From: Marivirga sp. ANT-B6
GTDB lineage: Bacteria; Bacteroidota; Bacteroidia; Cytophagales; Cyclobacteriaceae
Assembly (NCBI GenBank): GCA_001683905.1
Contig: LXQK01000027.1
Location: 1 to 54,251 of the forward strand
Reading direction: 5' to 3'
DNA length: 54,251 bases
Of the stretch, positions 18,001 through 27,177 are shown piece by piece. The stretch's first letter is position 1. Each line of letters opens with the position of its first letter. A program made the position numbers and the translations under genes. The notes below the pieces were generated by a model, which did no database searches, was not told the DNA's origin, and saw only the letters and a program-made list of their open reading frames with translations.

Positions 18001-18756
18001 CTATATGATGTTCACGATATACTTGATAAATATACCTGAAACGACAGCCATAGCAAAACTTAATAAGGTGCCTATTAAGATGTATTCAGCCTCTTTTCGG
18101 TCTTTATTTCCTTTAATTTCGTTGAAGCGCAAAATCGATTTTGAGGCGATCAGGAAACCAATAAATTCGTACCTGCTAAAAAGTATGAAGGTAATAATTA
18201 AAAACCTTTCAATTCTGCCAATCCATTTACCCGCATCATTCAAACCTTTTATTTCCTCCTGGTTGAGATATTCAATTTCTTCCCGCCACCGTGCGGTTGA
18301 TTTTGCAATTAGAAATCCTGTAGGCCATATGACGATGATATAGGTCATGGCTATGGCCCAGCCTGTGGTGTGGTTGAGCGCATTTTCTAAAAATGCGTAC
18401 ATAGATGCTTCTGCTCCTGTGTAGACGACCCAGGCGAGCAGGAGCATCCCCAGATGTAGAAACTGGTCGATAATAAAATTTCTGGTATTATCTTTCTGGT
18501 ACGACTTCCATATATCGATTGCCAGGTGGGTGATCATTATAAAAAGAGGTAAAAAGATATGCAGCCAATCTGCTAAAAGCAGATAGGTGAGCCCACCTAC
18601 TACCAATGCATGAAAATAAAGATATTTTGATTTTACTTTGTTACGGACGCGCTCTATAACCCATTTATCGGGTTGCAGTATAAAGTCAGCTAATAAGTGA
18701 GCAATGATAATCCTCACCAGTATCAATACGTCTTCCTGGGTAAAAAATTGGTGCAT
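18001..18756 (-). CDS. DUF3307 polytopic membrane protein
   Basis: A 251-residue inner-membrane protein with about six hydrophobic segments. His/Asp residues sit in or beside membrane segments in a regular pattern: H20-x3-D24-x3-Q28, H49, H77-x3-D81-x2-K84, D97-x3-H101. Such clusters occur in membrane-embedded metal-dependent hydrolases, but no activity is established for DUF3307. Its ATG overlaps the satD stop by one base (TAATG), so the pair is translationally coupled. SatD and DUF3307 are repeatedly found together in bacteria. The likely role is a membrane effector or receptor partner of SatD; this is inference. Confidence 0.88.
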   Translation of the reverse strand: MHQFFTQEDVLILVRIIIAHLLADFILQPDKWVIERVRNKVKSKYLYFHALVVGGLTYLLLADWLHIFLPLFIMITHLAIDIWKSYQKDNTRNFIIDQFLHLGMLLLAWVVYTGAEASMYAFLENALNHTTGWAIAMTYIIVIWPTGFLIAKSTARWREEIEYLNQEEIKGLNDAGKWIGRIERFLIITFILFSRYEFIGFLIASKSILRFNEIKGNKDRKEAEYILIGTLLSFAMAVVSGIFIKYIVNII

Positions 18757-19424
18757 TATTGCGCTAGTTTTTGGATGATGAGGCTTTTAAACCGCTTTAA
18801 AAAGTTGTCAATGGCAAACCAGCCGGCACCTTTAAGTCTCTGATTCACGGCTGCCTGCGTAATATGCAGTTTATCGGCCATGGCTTGTTGTGTCAGTCCT
18901 TCTATCTGCAATAGTACTACTTCTGCCTGAGCGCTCGACCATTTTTGTATAATGATATCTGCCAGCGGGCAAGCGACAGCCAATTCCTGGTCTACTTCTT
19001 CCCAAGGGGTTTTAATCTGCAACCACATATCACCCGTCATCTGGTCTAATATTGGCCCCGATCTTCTATAGGCGATTCCGTCGCCCTCTGCACCGGTTTC
19101 CGACAAATAGGCTATCTCCCCTAGTCCAACTGCAATTCTTGCATCCCATAAGTCTTTAAGTCCCACGTCGACACTTTTTCTGAGGGTAGCCCGAATGATG
19201 AGTGATGCGAGTAAGGCATCTTCAGGATTGGCTAATACACCTTGAAAACTGTCGCCTCTATAGATTGAAAACGGAGCGATTAAGTTACTGCTGTTCAGGA
19301 TTTTATCTGCATTAAAAAAGGAGCTTTTCAAATCTGCCAGCAATTTTTTCCGTTGATCTTTCCCGATGCGTGAGGAGTCTACTATATCGCCGGTTAGTAC
19401 TGCGTATACCTTGGGAATAGCCAT
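18756..19424 (-). CDS. SatD family protein: cyclase-like domain plus helix-turn-helix
   Basis: A 222-residue cytoplasmic protein. The N-terminal SatD domain opens with AVLTGDIVDSSRI. Its block order resembles class III nucleotide cyclases: TGDIVDSS (D13, D16) like the FADIxGFT metal site, YRGDSFQGVL (D58) like the GDxF hairpin, ARIAVGLGEI like RIGIHxGxV, and GDGIAYRRSGPIL like the GxxVNxAARL helix. Residues 177-200 (LTQQAMADKLHITQAAVNQRL) form a helix-turn-helix. No enzymatic activity is demonstrated for SatD; it may only bind nucleotides. It is followed in coupling by DUF3307 and preceded by three repeated operators, suggesting autoregulation. Confidence 0.85.
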   Translation of the reverse strand: MAIPKVYAVLTGDIVDSSRIGKDQRKKLLADLKSSFFNADKILNSSNLIAPFSIYRGDSFQGVLANPEDALLASLIIRATLRKSVDVGLKDLWDARIAVGLGEIAYLSETGAEGDGIAYRRSGPILDQMTGDMWLQIKTPWEEVDQELAVACPLADIIIQKWSSAQAEVVLLQIEGLTQQAMADKLHITQAAVNQRLKGAGWFAIDNFLKRFKSLIIQKLAQ

Positions 19425-19549: not shown

Positions 19550-21127
19550 TTAAAAAGGAGCTTTACCAAAGGGATTGGACTTATTATCCGGGCCGGCACC
19601 AGGTTTGTTCATCTTGCTACTCAACGTAATTGTATTGGAAGGGGAATCAAAATCAGTACCTCCAGCAGAAGGGAAGGAATTCCCATAGTTATTTCCAAAC
19701 CCACTACCGCCGTCAATATCAGCAAATTTAGTAAACTTACCAATGAACTTAAGGGTAACATTATCCAACGACCCGTTTCTATGTTTAGCTATAATCACTT
19801 CACCAGTACCTTGGGTGGACATACCACCCTCATCTTCAGTAATACCATAGTACTCGGGCCTGTAAAGGAACATTACCATATCCGCATCCTGCTCAATGGA
19901 TCCTGACTCACGTAAATCAGATAATTGTGGTCTTTTGTCACCGCCCCTAGTCTCTACGGCCCTGCTCAACTGCGAAAGCGCGATCACAGGAACTTCAAGC
20001 TCTTTGGCAATATTTTTCAAGGCGCGGGAAATGGAGGCAATTTCCTGCTCGCGATTACCACCACCACCGCCACCCTTGGAAGAATCTCCCGACATCAGCT
20101 GCAAGTAATCTATAATGATCAATTGTACATTGTGCTGGGCCTTGAGCCTCCTGCATTTGGCACGCAACTCTAAAATAGAAAGCGCTGGCGTATCATCAAT
20201 AAAAATTGGCGCATCTGTTAATTTAGCTGTCTTATGTACCAACTGCTCCCACTCGTAATCAGCCAGATTCCCTTTTTTAATTTTATCACTCTCTAACTCA
20301 GCTTCGGCAGAAATAAGCCTGTTGACAAGCTGCACTGCAGACATCTCCAGCGAAAATATAGCCACCGCATGCCCATGATCTACCGCAGCATTGCGCATAG
20401 CAGAAACCACGAAAGCAGTTTTACCCATACCTGGTCTGGCAGCAATAATAACAAGGTCAGACTTTTGCCACCCTGAAGTAACCCTATCCAGCGCGGTAAA
20501 ACCACTGGGAACACCGGTAAGGCCATTTTTTTGGTCCTTCTTCGCTTCCAGCTCTGTAATAGCCTGCCGCATGATGGATTTCATCTGGGCATAATTTTTC
20601 CTGATATTCGATTCTGATACTTCAAATAAAGATTGCTCGGTCCTATCGAGTAGTGAAAAGACATCGGTGGTATCCTCATAGGCATCGTGTTGAATTTCGG
20701 ATGCTATTCGAATCAACTCCCGTTTAATAGATTGCTCAGAGATGATACGCGCGTGGAACTCAATATTAGCGGCTGAGTTCACCCGTGTGGTAAGTTCAGT
20801 AATATGGTATGGCCCTCCAACCAACTCGAGCTTACCATTTCGCCGCAGTTGGTTGGTTACCGTCAGTAGATCTACGGGTTCCGAATTATGAAACAAGTCA
20901 ACAATGGCCGCATAAATTTCCTTATTTGTTTCCTTATAGAAGCTTTCAGGCTTAAGGATATCAATAACAGCCGTTAAAGCATCTTTTTCAAGCATCAGCG
21001 CTCCTAAAACGGCCTCCTCCAGGTCGACAGCCTGAGGCGGCAGCTTACCCAGTTGCGTACCCAGTTCATTCCTATTGGTATTCCTTTTATACCCTAACCT
21101 TAAAGCCGATGATTTTCCTAAATCCAT
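19550..21127 (-). CDS. dnaB: Replicative DNA helicase DnaB
   Basis: Hexameric 5'-3' helicase that unwinds DNA at the replication fork; 525 residues. The N-terminal domain LPPQAVDLEEAVLGALMLEKDAL is followed by a linker and a RecA-like core: Walker A ARPGMGKTAF, Walker B LIIIDYLQLM, the SQLSRAVE..DLRESGSIEQDADMVMF block. The C-terminal tail is a Gly/Asn/Ser-rich, probably disordered, region of about 60 residues. It lies downstream of the mrp operon on the same strand but has its own 264-base upstream region with DnaA boxes and a palindrome over a candidate -7 element. Confidence 0.97.
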   Translation of the reverse strand: MDLGKSSALRLGYKRNTNRNELGTQLGKLPPQAVDLEEAVLGALMLEKDALTAVIDILKPESFYKETNKEIYAAIVDLFHNSEPVDLLTVTNQLRRNGKLELVGGPYHITELTTRVNSAANIEFHARIISEQSIKRELIRIASEIQHDAYEDTTDVFSLLDRTEQSLFEVSESNIRKNYAQMKSIMRQAITELEAKKDQKNGLTGVPSGFTALDRVTSGWQKSDLVIIAARPGMGKTAFVVSAMRNAAVDHGHAVAIFSLEMSAVQLVNRLISAEAELESDKIKKGNLADYEWEQLVHKTAKLTDAPIFIDDTPALSILELRAKCRRLKAQHNVQLIIIDYLQLMSGDSSKGGGGGGNREQEIASISRALKNIAKELEVPVIALSQLSRAVETRGGDKRPQLSDLRESGSIEQDADMVMFLYRPEYYGITEDEGGMSTQGTGEVIIAKHRNGSLDNVTLKFIGKFTKFADIDGGSGFGNNYGNSFPSAGGTDFDSPSNTITLSSKMNKPGAGPDNKSNPFGKAPF

Positions 21128-21158
21128 GAAGTTTCTCTGTTATTTACTATGCGGATAA

Positions 21159-21178
21159 CAAATCTAATTAATAATTAG
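21159..21178 (-). promoter_or_regulatory. Candidate dnaB -7 element overlapped by a palindrome
   Basis: On the minus strand TAGATTTG (21159-21166) matches the -7 consensus TAnnTTTG, 32-39 bases before the dnaB ATG. The perfect palindrome CTAATTAATAATTAG (21164-21178) overlaps it and could be an operator. A -33 element is not clear. Confidence 0.35.
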
Positions 21179-21238
21179 CATAAGTAAAATCAAACTTTTG
21201 AACAAGTTTTGCCTATGTTTTATCATTATTAGCAAGGG

Positions 21239-21258
21239 TTATCCACAACTTATTCACA
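21239..21258 (+). promoter_or_regulatory. Two tandem DnaA boxes upstream of dnaB
   Basis: TTATCCACA (21239-21247) is a perfect DnaA box. TTATTCACA (21250-21258) fits TTATNCACA in the same orientation, 11 bases start to start, one helical turn. They sit 112-131 bases before dnaB in an AT-rich gap. They may regulate dnaB through DnaA or be part of a replication origin; no dnaA gene is in the window. Confidence 0.55.
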
Positions 21259-21391
21259 CCCTACAAGCAGTTGATTTATATGGTCATCTACAACTTTCGA
21301 TAACACATAAAGCTGATAAAGGACTACAGGAGCGAAATTTACCTCGCAACCATAACCAGACTCCTCAATAGAAAACCAAAATGATCTGATT

Positions 21392-21787
21392 TTATTGTTT
21401 TTTTCCTGGCAAGTCCGCTTTATCCACATTCGTTTCTGGCATAGCGCCATGTTCCTTCAGGTAAGGCTTAAATTCTTCAATAATGGTTTTTTCCCAAAAC
21501 AGTACCCTGTTGCGAAATGCGGCACGCGCAATAACATGTGCGGCCACTGGAGAGGTAAGCAACATAAAAAGAATGATCGTAATGGATTTATTCATGATCA
21601 CGACTTCATTAAAATAAATGGTGATACCCGTGACAATAAATCCTATTCCCAATGTAGCTGCTTTTGTGATGGCAGACATGCGGATATAAAAGTCAGGCAA
21701 ACGAATAATACCTACAGAAGAAATGACGAGGAAAATAACCCCGATATAAATGAATATTGCACTTACTATCTCAACCCAGCTTTCCAT
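21392..21787 (-). CDS. mrpG: Mrp Na+/H+ antiporter subunit G
   Basis: A 131-residue membrane protein with three hydrophobic segments. Subunit of the seven-part Mrp cation/proton antiporter. The family core is SSVGIIRLPDFYIRMSAITKAATLGIGFI followed by LTSPVAAHVIARAAF. The C-terminus carries a charged 40-residue cytoplasmic tail. It is the last mrp gene, 1 base after mrpF, ahead of the dnaB regulatory gap. Confidence 0.93.
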   Translation of the reverse strand: MESWVEIVSAIFIYIGVIFLVISSVGIIRLPDFYIRMSAITKAATLGIGFIVTGITIYFNEVVIMNKSITIILFMLLTSPVAAHVIARAAFRNRVLFWEKTIIEEFKPYLKEHGAMPETNVDKADLPGKKQ

Positions 21788-21788
21788 G

Positions 21789-22049
21789 TTATTTGTTTAG
21801 ATAATAGGCAAATGACATAGCACCTAAAAACGAAATCAGACTTAAGATAATGGCCACATCCATCACGGAAGTGTTGTCTGTCAGCACTGCGTATATGGCT
21901 GTAATGCCTATGATATTAGCCGAAAAAAGATCGAAAGCCGTGACACGGTCTGGCAGCGTGGGGCCCTTAAAAAAGCGGATCATCACCATGATCAGACAAA
22001 TACTGATGACGCTGATAGCAACTATTAGAGATATATGGAATGCATTCAT
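21789..22049 (-). CDS. mrpF: Mrp Na+/H+ antiporter subunit F
   Basis: An 86-residue protein with three membrane segments. The motif RFFKGPTLPDRVTAFDLFSANIIGI is the MrpF/MnhF signature. It overlaps the end of mrpE by four bases (ATGA-type), consistent with coupled translation of stoichiometric subunits. Confidence 0.93.
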   Translation of the reverse strand: MNAFHISLIVAISVISICLIMVMIRFFKGPTLPDRVTAFDLFSANIIGITAIYAVLTDNTSVMDVAIILSLISFLGAMSFAYYLNK

Positions 22050-22537
22050 CGTGTTATGGCTAGTAATTTTTTTTCAAAACCGTTTTTGATCTCCATTTTC
22101 AGCCGTTCTATGTCGCCATCAATGATATATATAGCATGTACATAAAGTATTTTTTTATCCTCCGATACATCAATACTTAAAGTTCCCGGTGTTAGCGATA
22201 TTAGATTTGCCAAAATAGTTATCTCAGCATCGGTATTGGCATCTAGCGGTAAAGCAATAACGCCGGGCTTCATATAATGAATTGGTGTGATAATGTCATA
22301 GGCAACCTTTAAGCTTGCCACAATCAACTCCTTTAGAAAATAGAAGAAAAAGCTCACCACAAGTGGTATTTTCTTGAAATAACTTCTATTGAAGAAAAAG
22401 ATGCAAAGCCATAAAACAAAGAAAGCGGCTAAAAATGTTAATGCTGCAGAAAGCGCATGATAGGGAACCTCTACCATTCGAAAAAACAAAGAGGTAAAGG
22501 TGATCGATAAGAGGAAGTGCACGATAAAAGTCTTCAT
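22046..22537 (-). CDS. mrpE: Mrp Na+/H+ antiporter subunit E
   Basis: A 163-residue subunit with two N-terminal membrane segments and a cytoplasmic C-terminal half. Family blocks are the YFLKELIVASLKVAYDIITP segment and ANLISLTPGTLSIDVSEDKKILYVHAI. Overlaps mrpD by four bases at its start and mrpF at its end. Confidence 0.93.
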   Translation of the reverse strand: MKTFIVHFLLSITFTSLFFRMVEVPYHALSAALTFLAAFFVLWLCIFFFNRSYFKKIPLVVSFFFYFLKELIVASLKVAYDIITPIHYMKPGVIALPLDANTDAEITILANLISLTPGTLSIDVSEDKKILYVHAIYIIDGDIERLKMEIKNGFEKKLLAITR

Positions 22538-24045
22538 TTGCGTAAGATAACTTTAATATAATTATCCCTATTGAATAATTGCTCTGCAGCTTGAACCGAG
22601 AAATCAAGAAATGGCTCAGCATAAAACCCCATGGCTACGATGATAATCGTAAGCAAAACAACGGGTAAGATCAATAACCTGTTTAACCTCAAAAATGATG
22701 TCTGGTTATAAAATATCTTTTCTGACCCTTCCCCATCGGGTGCTTTTTTCCAGAAGACCTCGTTCCATATTTTAGTGATATAGATAATGGATAAAGCACT
22801 TACCACCAAAGCCACACCCACGATTATAAAGTAGTTGGATGCCACCGCAGCTTTAATCAGTAGAAACTTAGCCCAAAATCCTGATAAAGGGGGAACTCCT
22901 GTAAGCGAAAAAGCCGATATAATGAATAAAAAGGCGATAAACGGGAACTTTGCGTAGATACTGCCTAGCTTTTTGAGCTTGAAAGACCCGGCCGCTGCAT
23001 ACACTACCCCACTGATTAAGAACAAGTTGGTTTTTACCAGCATATTATGAATGATAAAGTAAACAACTGCTGCAATGGCCAAAGGCGTATGAATGGCAAG
23101 CCCCATGATCATATAGCCGATTTGGCTGATTATACTGAAAGATAATATTTTCCGGAAATCATTTTGGGCTATAGCACCAAAAACACCAACAAACATCGTA
23201 AGCCCTGCAATAACGAAAAGGTAGGGCTGCAAATAAGGCACTTCTGAAAAAAAGATAAGTGTAAAAAAGCGGACCAGAACGTATACACCCACTTTTGTAA
23301 GCAATCCACCAATGATTGCTGTTATAGCGCTTGGAGGAGTATGGTAAGCAGCAGGCAACCAGAAGAACAAGGGAAATAACCCTGCTTTAATGCCAAAACC
23401 CACAAGAAAAAAGATTGCAGCCAACGTCACCAGGCCTTTATCAGCAATCTCTGGTAATAACAAAGAAATCTGGGCCATATTTAATGACCCTGTTAAGCCG
23501 TAAATAACACCGATACCAGCCAAAAATATCGAGGAAGCCAGAAAATTAATAACCAAGTATTTAACAGAGCCCTCCAGTTGGTTTTTAGTTCCTCCCAATG
23601 AAAGCAACACAAAGCTTGACATGAGCATTACCTCAAACCAGACATACAAATTAAAAATATCACCAGCAAGCAAAGCACCGCTGATCCCAAACAACAGAAA
23701 CATTAAAATAGGATAAAATCCATATTCCTTTCTCTCCAGATTGATGTTCGGGATGGAGAAAATAAAAACGAAAATACCTAACAGGCTGGTGGTTAGCAAT
23801 AGACCAGCACTTAAAAGATCGGCTACTAAAGTAATGCCAAAGGGTGCCGGCCAGTTGCCGATCTGCATAACCTGAATGCCATGCAGCCATACTTCTCGTA
23901 GGAGGAATGCGGAACCCACCAAAAGTAAAAAGCTGCCTGCCAAAACAATCATCCTTTGCCCATTGATGTTTTTCCAGCTTAGAAGGCAAAAGATAGCCGC
24001 AAAAAGAGGTATAAGTAAAGGTAAGATTACGAGAACCCCCATCAT
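22534..24045 (-). CDS. mrpD: Mrp Na+/H+ antiporter subunit D
   Basis: A 503-residue, about 14-segment membrane protein homologous to complex I subunits NuoM/NuoN. It shows the conserved proton-channel block GIKAGLFPLFFWLPAAYHTPPSAITAIIGGLLTKVGVYVLVRF with its lysine, and GVPPLSGFWAKFLLIKAA. With MrpA it forms the ion-translocating part of the antiporter. It follows mrpC after a 51-base gap and overlaps mrpE. Confidence 0.95.
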   Translation of the reverse strand: MMGVLVILPLLIPLFAAIFCLLSWKNINGQRMIVLAGSFLLLVGSAFLLREVWLHGIQVMQIGNWPAPFGITLVADLLSAGLLLTTSLLGIFVFIFSIPNINLERKEYGFYPILMFLLFGISGALLAGDIFNLYVWFEVMLMSSFVLLSLGGTKNQLEGSVKYLVINFLASSIFLAGIGVIYGLTGSLNMAQISLLLPEIADKGLVTLAAIFFLVGFGIKAGLFPLFFWLPAAYHTPPSAITAIIGGLLTKVGVYVLVRFFTLIFFSEVPYLQPYLFVIAGLTMFVGVFGAIAQNDFRKILSFSIISQIGYMIMGLAIHTPLAIAAVVYFIIHNMLVKTNLFLISGVVYAAAGSFKLKKLGSIYAKFPFIAFLFIISAFSLTGVPPLSGFWAKFLLIKAAVASNYFIIVGVALVVSALSIIYITKIWNEVFWKKAPDGEGSEKIFYNQTSFLRLNRLLILPVVLLTIIIVAMGFYAEPFLDFSVQAAEQLFNRDNYIKVILRK

Positions 24046-24096
24046 ATTGTATTGTGCTTTACAGCCGAAACATAGGTGCTCATGAAGGTGAAAGTA

Positions 24097-24456
24097 TTAC
24101 GCTGCATTGATTTTGTCAGTTGTGTTTAATTTGTCCATATCATCAGTCCCGGCTACATCGTAGTTCCTCTTAATCAAGACAATAGCAAAGGCCTGAATTC
24201 CAAAACCTATCACAATGGCTGTCAGAATGAGCGCTTGTGGAACGGGATCGGCGAAGATTCCCGTCAGCTTCTCTGCGTCACCGTCTACCAGTGCAGGTGC
24301 ACCTCTGGTTAGTCTACTGACAGAGAATAGAAACAGGTTTGTCGAATGCCCCATCATAATCAAGCCAATGATTAGCTTCACGAAGTTGCGCTGCAGCATC
24401 AGGTAAAGGCTTGCGGCATACAATATACCTACTACAAAAGGTAAGATCTCATCCAT
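24097..24456 (-). CDS. mrpC: Mrp Na+/H+ antiporter subunit C
   Basis: A 119-residue subunit with three membrane segments, homologous to NuoK. Recognised by LIIGLIMMGHSTNLFLFSVSRLTRG and DPVPQALILTAIVIGFGIQAFAIVLIKR. The charged C-terminal tail is cytoplasmic. It lies one base after mrpB. Confidence 0.94.
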   Translation of the reverse strand: MDEILPFVVGILYAASLYLMLQRNFVKLIIGLIMMGHSTNLFLFSVSRLTRGAPALVDGDAEKLTGIFADPVPQALILTAIVIGFGIQAFAIVLIKRNYDVAGTDDMDKLNTTDKINAA

Positions 24457-24457
24457 A

Positions 24458-24865
24458 CTATTCTTCTGACAAATTTAGCGTAATCCGCAATACAATGCCA
24501 ACAACGAGAATATATACACCAATATCAAACATAATGGGTGTACCAGGTTTTCCGAAAATGGGCAGGTAAAAATCTGCCCAAAGCGAACTCATAAAAGGCT
24601 GCCCTTCAAAAATAGACACCAAACCACTACTGGCTGATATCAACAACCCCAACGCGATCAAAACCATGGTGTTGATCTTAAACATCTTCTTGGTTTCCCT
24701 GGCCCCGTAGATCATGGCATGGAAGGTAAGGGGCATAGCCGCAATTAAGCCACCAATAAAACCACCGCCAGGCTCATTGTGCCCTCTGAAGAGCAAGTAA
24801 ACAGAAAATATCAGAAAGAGCGGCGTCAGTATCTTGATGGCCGTACGTACGATTAATGTATTCAT
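24458..24865 (-). CDS. mrpB: Mrp Na+/H+ antiporter subunit B
   Basis: A 135-residue subunit with four membrane segments. MnhB signature: [31 protein letters not shown], then [19 protein letters not shown]. It overlaps the end of mrpA by four bases. In this operon mrpA and mrpB are separate genes, not fused. Confidence 0.95.
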
Positions 24866-27177
24866 TTCATCTTCCCTTTCACAAGTTTCAACTTTAACAA
24901 TGCCACAATACCAATAGCAGCTATAGCCAGTACAGAGATTTCACCCATAGTATCCAGCGCACGGAAGTCTACAAGAATAACATTGACAGCATTTTTGCCC
25001 TTCCCTAATATATAGGTATTTTCGGCGAAATATGCTTTTAGGCCCGACACCATTGGATGCTCCGTTACCAAAAGCAGAACACTAGTCATCAATAGGCCAA
25101 AACCTATGGAAATAATTATATACAACCCGTTCTGGAACGACTTTAAAGGGTAGAAACGGAGTGGTGGCAACTTATGCAGTATCAGTACAAATAAAACAAC
25201 CGTTAATGTTTCTATCAAAAATTGTGTGATGGCAACATCAGGAGCACCGAAGAAAATAAATATGATGGCTACTGCATACCCCACCACACCCATTGTAACG
25301 ATAGAAGTAAGGCGTGAACGGGTTTTAAAGAAAACAAAAACAGCAACCAGTGTAAAAGCAAGTATAATGACTTCATAGAATCTGACATTATCTATATCAA
25401 AATTGGCAACTGGAAATATTTTTAGATCGAATTGCCATAGTACGCTGGCCAGCATAAAGCTGAAAAATGCTACGATAACAGCAATATAATTTCTTAAGTA
25501 GCCATTCTGGAAGTAACTAGTTTGAAGTCTTGCAAACCGTTTAATCAATTGAAGCAAACCATCGTACCATGCTGTAGGTCCATGGTTATAAAGATAATCG
25601 AGATGTAAGGGAATTTTCCGGATTCCTTTTCTAACAAAAAACAATGCCGTGCCCAGCAGTAAGGTCAAGAGACTAAGCATCAAAACCAGGTTAAATCCAT
25701 GCCAAAAGTGCAACTCCAGTGGCAAATCCTCGTTTCCAACAACATTAGATACCTGGGTGAGCAAGGGCTGTACCAGCACACCGGCGAACAAACCAAAGAC
25801 CAGACCCAATACGGCAAGTGTAACTGGCGCAACAAGCATCGCGACAGGCGCTTCTTTGTAATTTCTCTCGCTAAAGGATATATTCTGGATAAACAGGCCA
25901 TACCCTATCTCTATAGCTATAGCTACAAACGCTACGCCTGATACGATGACCGCCACCAGCAAAGCAATATGCTGTACCGTTGCATGCAAGGCAGCTTCAT
26001 AGATCAATTCTTTTCCTATAAACCCAAAAAAAGGCAATACGCCTGCCATGGAAAAGCAAGCCAAAAAAGCTGCAACACCAGTGAAAGGCATAAATTTGTA
26101 AAGCCCCGATAACTCCAGTACATCTCTTGATCCGGTTTGTTTATCAATATTTCCTGTAATTAAAAATAACGCTCCTTTATATAAGGCATGCGCCAATAGA
26201 AAAACCATGGCAGATTGAATGGCAAGCGATGTGCCGGCACCAAGCATCAGCACCAGTATCCCCAGCGCACTGATGGTCGTATAGGCAAGTATTTTTTTAA
26301 GATCTGTATGCTGTATGGCTAAAATAGCCCCTAATAACATGGTGATGCCTCCAGCAATCATCAAGGTGAACTGCCAGATTTCTGTACCACCAAGGGTTGG
26401 GTTAAATCTTGCAATCAGATAAATGCCCGCCTTTACCATGGTCGCAGAATGCAGATATGCACTTACAGGCGTAGGTGCAGCCATGGCATTGGGCAACCAA
26501 AAATGGAAAGGAAACTGCGCTGACTTTGTAAATGCACCCAGCAAAATCAATATCACAATCGCCAGGTAATAGGGATGGTCAATCACACGCTCATGTATAG
26601 ACAGGATTTCTACCAGTTCGTAAGTCTGCGTAACTTCCCCTAAGATTATAAAACCGGCAAGCAACGCCAGCCCGCCAGATGCGGTAACCAAAAATGCCTG
26701 TAAAGCAGCATTTCGCGATGTCTTGGCATTGTGACTGAATCCGATGAGAAGATACGAACTAAAACTGGTAAGCTCCCAAAAGATGAAGAGTGCAATCAAA
26801 TTTGAGGACATCACAAGCCCTAGCATAGAAGCCATGAAGATAAGCAGGTACATAAAGAACTTATCAGATTCCTTATACCCTTTCATATACGCAGCAGCAT
26901 ATACGAAAATTAAAAACCCGAAAAAACTAATGAGAAGGCCGAAGAAAAGACTTAAACCATCCAATTGAAAAGTGAAATTCACATCCAATGATGGCACCCA
27001 ATTGTATTGCCTACTGATTACCTCACCCTCAACGATCCGATTAAAATAGGTGCTGAGGTAAACAAAAACTCCCAACGGAACCAAAGCGATTAAATAGCCA
27101 TGACTCCTACCCAATGCCTTAGCGATAACCGGCACGAGTAAAGCACATATATACCCTATAAGTACGATTAAAAGCAT
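24862..27177 (-). CDS. mrpA: Mrp Na+/H+ antiporter subunit A
   Basis: The largest Mrp subunit, 771 residues with about 20 membrane segments, homologous to NuoL. The proton-channel block [37 protein letters not shown] and [19 protein letters not shown] are present. The C-terminal 170 residues match the DUF4040/MbhE-like extension ([20 protein letters not shown] and [26 protein letters not shown]). The complex exports Na+ (or other cations) in exchange for H+ and supports pH and salt homeostasis. It heads the mrpABCDEFG operon. Its upstream 218-base region is shared with the divergent mpl gene. Confidence 0.96.

Follow-up and report, generated by a model that had tools for sequence, protein, structure and literature searches.

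The 264-bp gap upstream of dnaB in Marivirga sp. ANT-B6 is very probably a promoter under DnaA control, as judged from the conservation, the orientation and the helical phasing of the DnaA boxes found there. We infer from these sequence patterns that DnaA is the binding protein and that transcription of dnaB responds to it. The window, i.e., the whole stretch of 54,251 nucleotides analyzed, is contig C176 of a draft genome (G000) that consists of 255 contigs, is 82.7% complete and does not contain a closed chromosome.

The dnaB upstream region and its DnaA boxes

A previous sequence-only reading of this DNA had described two tandem DnaA boxes of the same direction, one helical turn apart, in an AT-rich 264-base gap upstream of dnaB. 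The description proved accurate. The two boxes are direct repeats, both on the + strand, and are spaced 11 bp start to start, which leaves 2 bp between them; the gap, comprised between dnaB and mnhG (21128–21391), has a GC content of 32.6%, against 41.6% for the window. The relevant features are the following:

19550–21127, - strand: dnaB, replicative DNA helicase (TIGR00665; score 549 bits, cut-off 385)
21159–21166, - strand: predicted -7 element of the dnaB promoter, TAGATTTG (consensus TANNTTTG), lying 39 bp ahead of the dnaB start codon
21196–21204, + strand: TTTTGAACA, a weak site that matches at 6 of 8 positions and is in register, at a distance of 38 bp to the -7 element
21239–21247, + strand: DnaA box TTATCCACA; start-to-start distance to the dnaB -7 element, 81 bp
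21250–21258, + strand: DnaA box TTATTCACA, forming a double box with the preceding one; distance to the dnaB -7 element, 92 bp
21420–21428, + strand: third box matching the consensus, TTATCCACA, located within mnhG at its 3′ end
21392–27177, - strand: Mrp/Mnh sodium-proton antiporter operon, between dnaB and the Mur ligase gene in this genome
27396–28772, + strand: Mur ligase gene (MurC/Mpl-like), the divergent neighbor of dnaB in most relatives

The third consensus box, absent from the sequence-only reading, may be a chance occurrence. Single TTATNCACA boxes are not rare by themselves, the window containing three of them against 2.6 in shuffled sequences; all three are located within 190 bp of the 54 kb. 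The tandem pattern TTATNCACANNTTATNCACA occurs a single time in the 3.6-Mb draft genome and the reversed control pattern does not occur at all. A second close box pair in the draft (contig C111) lies inside the IF-2 gene, and we judged it to be due to chance. Both boxes of the pair upstream of dnaB are in phase with the helical register to the dnaB promoter. DnaA may bind the weak site at 21196–21204 as well, and the word TGTTCAAAA of this site is kept near the dnaB promoter in relatives. A full DnaA protein is encoded by the draft (contig C79; TIGR00362, 534.6 bits) and carries the DNA-binding signature GGRDHSTVIHA. Several hallmarks of a member of the DnaA regulon are found together: consensus boxes upstream of a promoter, a double box with a 2-bp gap, and a DnaA protein with its signature.

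The dnaB promoter was predicted on the basis of the -7 element consensus of the Bacteroidetes (PMC7366714). In the window, its -33 region is non-canonical and the start site is a predicted one. Among 103 dnaB loci, this element is present at 125 bp or less from the dnaB start in 85, where 12 would be expected. The -33 TTG was found in 11 of 56 dnaB promoters, in 20 of 57 Mur promoters and at 15% of random positions; its being scarcer at dnaB than at Mur promoters may be taken as a weak hint of activator dependence. At 42 dnaB loci of relatives, only 11–14 bp separate the -7 element from the start codon, so that the dnaB transcript would have little or no leader; in Bacteroides, mRNAs of the leaderless type are uncommon (PMC7366714). 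A scan for sigma-70 promoters and terminators yielded nothing above chance, and the Rfam scan of the window gave zero matches. SatD-family and DUF3307 genes (18001–19424) follow directly 3′ of dnaB on the same strand and are apparently co-transcribed with it.

Conservation of the boxes upstream of dnaB

The gap was then compared in related genomes, as the sequence-only reading had proposed, and the boxes proved to be conserved across a family of the Cytophagales. The comparison covered dnaB loci of the family and of named genomes. The 500 bp upstream of dnaB at 110 loci contain 60 TTATNCACA boxes, when 2.7 are expected from Markov shuffles (maximum, 7), and 55 of these boxes have the orientation seen in the window, on the strand opposite dnaB. 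The dnaB coding regions include four boxes in 165 kb. When near-identical upstream regions were dropped, which left 103 loci, box density was 1.74 per kb in dnaB gaps and 0.035 per kb in the other gaps of the same loci, a difference of about 50-fold. With no motif assumed, the 9-mer most widely shared upstream of dnaB was TGTGGATAA, the complement of TTATCCACA, followed by the promoter word TACATTTGT. Close box pairs are few in 60 whole genomes (mostly none to three per genome), and such a pair is located just upstream of dnaB in six genomes (G000, G013, G014, G016, G036, and G051). Not every lineage has the boxes: they are missing from many Hymenobacter, Spirosoma-type, flavobacterial and chitinophagal loci, and also from the dnaB upstream regions of G010, G012, G028, G029, and G033, which belong to the same family.

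Box clusters are also present elsewhere in the relatives. At loci L113, L115, L243, and L250, from four genomes (G009, G012, G025, and G022), groups of four to six variously oriented boxes occur in, or between, a gene for a TPR protein and a DUF2141/Ig-like gene; these clusters would be either a variant of the origin or a titration site. Double boxes are found ~450–550 bp upstream of a sodium:alanine symporter gene in two genomes, G014 and G056 (L258, 1991–2034; L262, 2003–2023). At locus L269 (1500–2180; G009, C279:18148–18179), three tandem boxes precede, by ~210 bp, a small gene that weakly matches the ribonucleotide-reductase N-terminal domain (PF00317); the identity of this gene is uncertain, as the equally sized gene of G037 (L260) matches MarR instead.

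Helical phasing of the boxes to the dnaB promoter

Twenty-nine loci of the Algoriphagus-Belliella-Cecembia type retain a box (TTATCCACA, TTATCAACA, or ATATCCACA) at 48–50 bp from the dnaB -7 element, while they differ about sevenfold in their distance to the Mur gene (~160 to 1182 bp). For the rest of the loci, the spacing between the nearest box and the dnaB -7 element follows a period of 10.75 bp (R = 0.66, n = 36), with a p-value of ~1e-7 which, as the remaining phasing p-values, is optimistic because the loci are related and relatedness was reduced, not removed. The distances cluster near 27, 38, 49, 60, 71, 82, and 92 bp. Upon thinning of the loci by DnaB identity (100, 92, 88, and 85%), R was 0.74–0.79, and none of 5000 random shifts matched the observed value at any level (p < 1/5000). 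Held-out loci were scored against the pre-set phase and gave a mean cosine of 0.79 (p = 8e-6); three duplicates and one locus sharing ~11% of its words with a used locus had been removed from this set, leaving n = 15. It is by helical phasing that the boxes keep a conserved position relative to the target promoter, and they share with class I sites whole-turn distances upstream of a core promoter. Degenerate boxes were found in register at offsets 38 and 27, with a mean of 4.2 of 8 matches against ~2, an arrangement that would be compatible with a short oligomer of DnaA extending to the -33 region.

Phasing also bears on whether another gene or another function could account for the boxes. It appears very unlikely that they regulate the divergent Mur ligase gene and not dnaB. 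The Mur gene is their neighbor in most relatives and the gene toward which they point, and ~60 bp separate a box from the Mur -7 element in several loci. However, the same phasing test performed against the Mur promoter gave R = 0.04, that is, no phasing, and it is relative to dnaB that the Algoriphagus-type boxes hold their place. In the window, moreover, the Mur ligase gene is 6 kb away with the Mrp operon in between, its upstream gap includes no DnaA box, and the boxes have stayed with dnaB. Despite the ~60-bp constancy in several loci, the Mur ligase was rejected as the target, having failed both the phasing and the Algoriphagus-group tests. We regard as equally unlikely a datA- or DARS-like role, in which the boxes would serve for titration or reactivation of DnaA and would lie beside dnaB by chance: double boxes are also carried by E. 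coli DARS and datA (PMC11317965), but neither phasing nor a fixed distance to the dnaB promoter would be expected of such a site.

The boxes and the chromosomal origin

The sequence-only reading had left two alternatives for the gap, DnaA control of dnaB transcription or a part of the chromosomal origin. The former is strongly supported by conservation, orientation and phasing; the latter did not hold up. An origin in the gap, or a part of one, was suggested by the presence of DnaA boxes within an AT-rich region beside a replication gene, and the genome's own origin was not located in the fragmented draft. We nevertheless regard it as most improbable. In two relatives with complete genomes, G036 and G047, both with boxes upstream of dnaB, the gene is ~2–3 Mb away from the skew switch. 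The skew was sampled at fourfold sites. In G036 it switches at ~0.80–0.94 Mb and again near 3.9–4.2 Mb, and the position of dnaB with its boxes is 4.35 Mb of 6.52. G047 has its switch at ~1.43–1.71 Mb and dnaB at 5.01 Mb of 5.69. The sampled skew of G013 is patchy. No skew switch is seen at the gap (21 kb) in the window, and an origin would not be expected to show phasing to the dnaB promoter. The origin reading was rejected on the basis of the skew in G036 and G047. The two observations that the sequence-only reading had named as contrary to its proposal hence came apart: in relatives the skew minimum is indeed far away, but the boxes are conserved.

In addition, a separate origin-like array recurs in many relatives. 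It consists of three boxes with a pitch of 10 bp (TTATCCACATTTATCCACACTTATCCACA) or of two boxes 9–20 bp apart, in many cases with an inverted box ~78 bp further on, and is located beside thioredoxin-like and CLC chloride-channel genes. The loci are:

L229, L230, L232, L233, L237, L253, L256 (about 1501–1530)
L117, L121, L125, L128, L239, L240

This recurrent three-box array is probably the oriC of the family. The array of G047, at 1,556,566, is on the skew switch; that of G036, at 650 kb, is ~200 kb off. Arrays and dnaB boxes have in common the same 9-mer in tandem. The arrays differ in their 10-bp pitch, in the often inverted fourth box and in their genomic place, and the dnaB gap contains just two boxes at 11 bp. 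In the genome of the window, the CLC-channel locus, which borders the array in relatives, has no strict boxes, and a search of the draft for the array pattern with three mismatches allowed found nothing.

Discussion

In the explanation that we favor, DnaA would bind cooperatively to the two boxes of the pair, probably as a dimer, might extend over the weaker in-register sites toward the promoter, and would act on RNA polymerase at the TANNTTTG dnaB promoter from one fixed face of the helix; helicase supply would then follow the level or the nucleotide state of DnaA. With respect to the sign of this control, activation seems somewhat likelier than repression, by analogy, because distances repeating at whole turns resemble class I activator sites. 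Class I CRP sites are active at -61.5, -71.5, and -82.5 but not when displaced by half a turn (PMC6301791), and the positions of the dnaB boxes likewise repeat at whole turns; CRP is a different protein, and it is by analogy that polymerase contact and activation would extend to dnaB. The mechanism of transcription activation by DnaA has been described as poorly understood (PMC11317965).

Repression, a variant of opposite sign within the same DnaA-controlled promoter, for instance by an oligomer covering the -33 region, seems somewhat less likely. The degenerate boxes run in register as far as offsets 38 and 27, beside the -33 region, and many promoters are repressed by DnaA, its own included (PMC8203912, PMC11317965). 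On the other hand, many loci have boxes only 60–150 bp upstream, too far for a direct block of the polymerase, and the scarcity of the -33 TTG at dnaB hints weakly in the other direction. Tentatively, and with rather less confidence than we place in DnaA control as such, we propose that DnaA could be a face-of-helix-dependent activator of dnaB across the Cyclobacteriaceae and neighboring lineages, in which a register-locked oligomer would offset the weak -33 region and tie helicase supply to initiator activity.

Comparable arrangements exist in other bacteria. In vivo, E. coli DnaA prefers double boxes with a 2–3-bp gap, and nrdA, polA, and purH have two boxes of the same direction, so spaced, upstream of these replication or nucleotide genes (PMC11317965). 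dnaB is not among the 16 regions bound in E. coli (PMC11317965) and, unlike the E. coli double boxes, many of the relatives compared here combine one strong box with weak ones. A closer likeness is found in Caulobacter crescentus, where, according to a review's account, dnaB has predicted DnaA boxes upstream and responds to DnaA as a member of its regulon (Hottes et al., 2005, cited in PMC8203912). Caulobacter differs in phylum and promoter type; the conserved phased series was observed at the dnaB loci compared here. Given Caulobacter, DnaA control of dnaB is of a known kind and has been proposed before. Our literature search found no report of it in Bacteroidota, which is not proof that none exists; the phase-locked geometry of the boxes and their occurrence in this phylum appear to be new.

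These loci constitute a series of over 60 natural promoters whose DnaA boxes are shifted by whole turns relative to the same core promoter. The series tells where DnaA must stand and makes contact with the polymerase directly testable. Taken with Caulobacter, the presence of such boxes in Bacteroidota suggests that the coupling of helicase supply to the initiator is a recurrent strategy.
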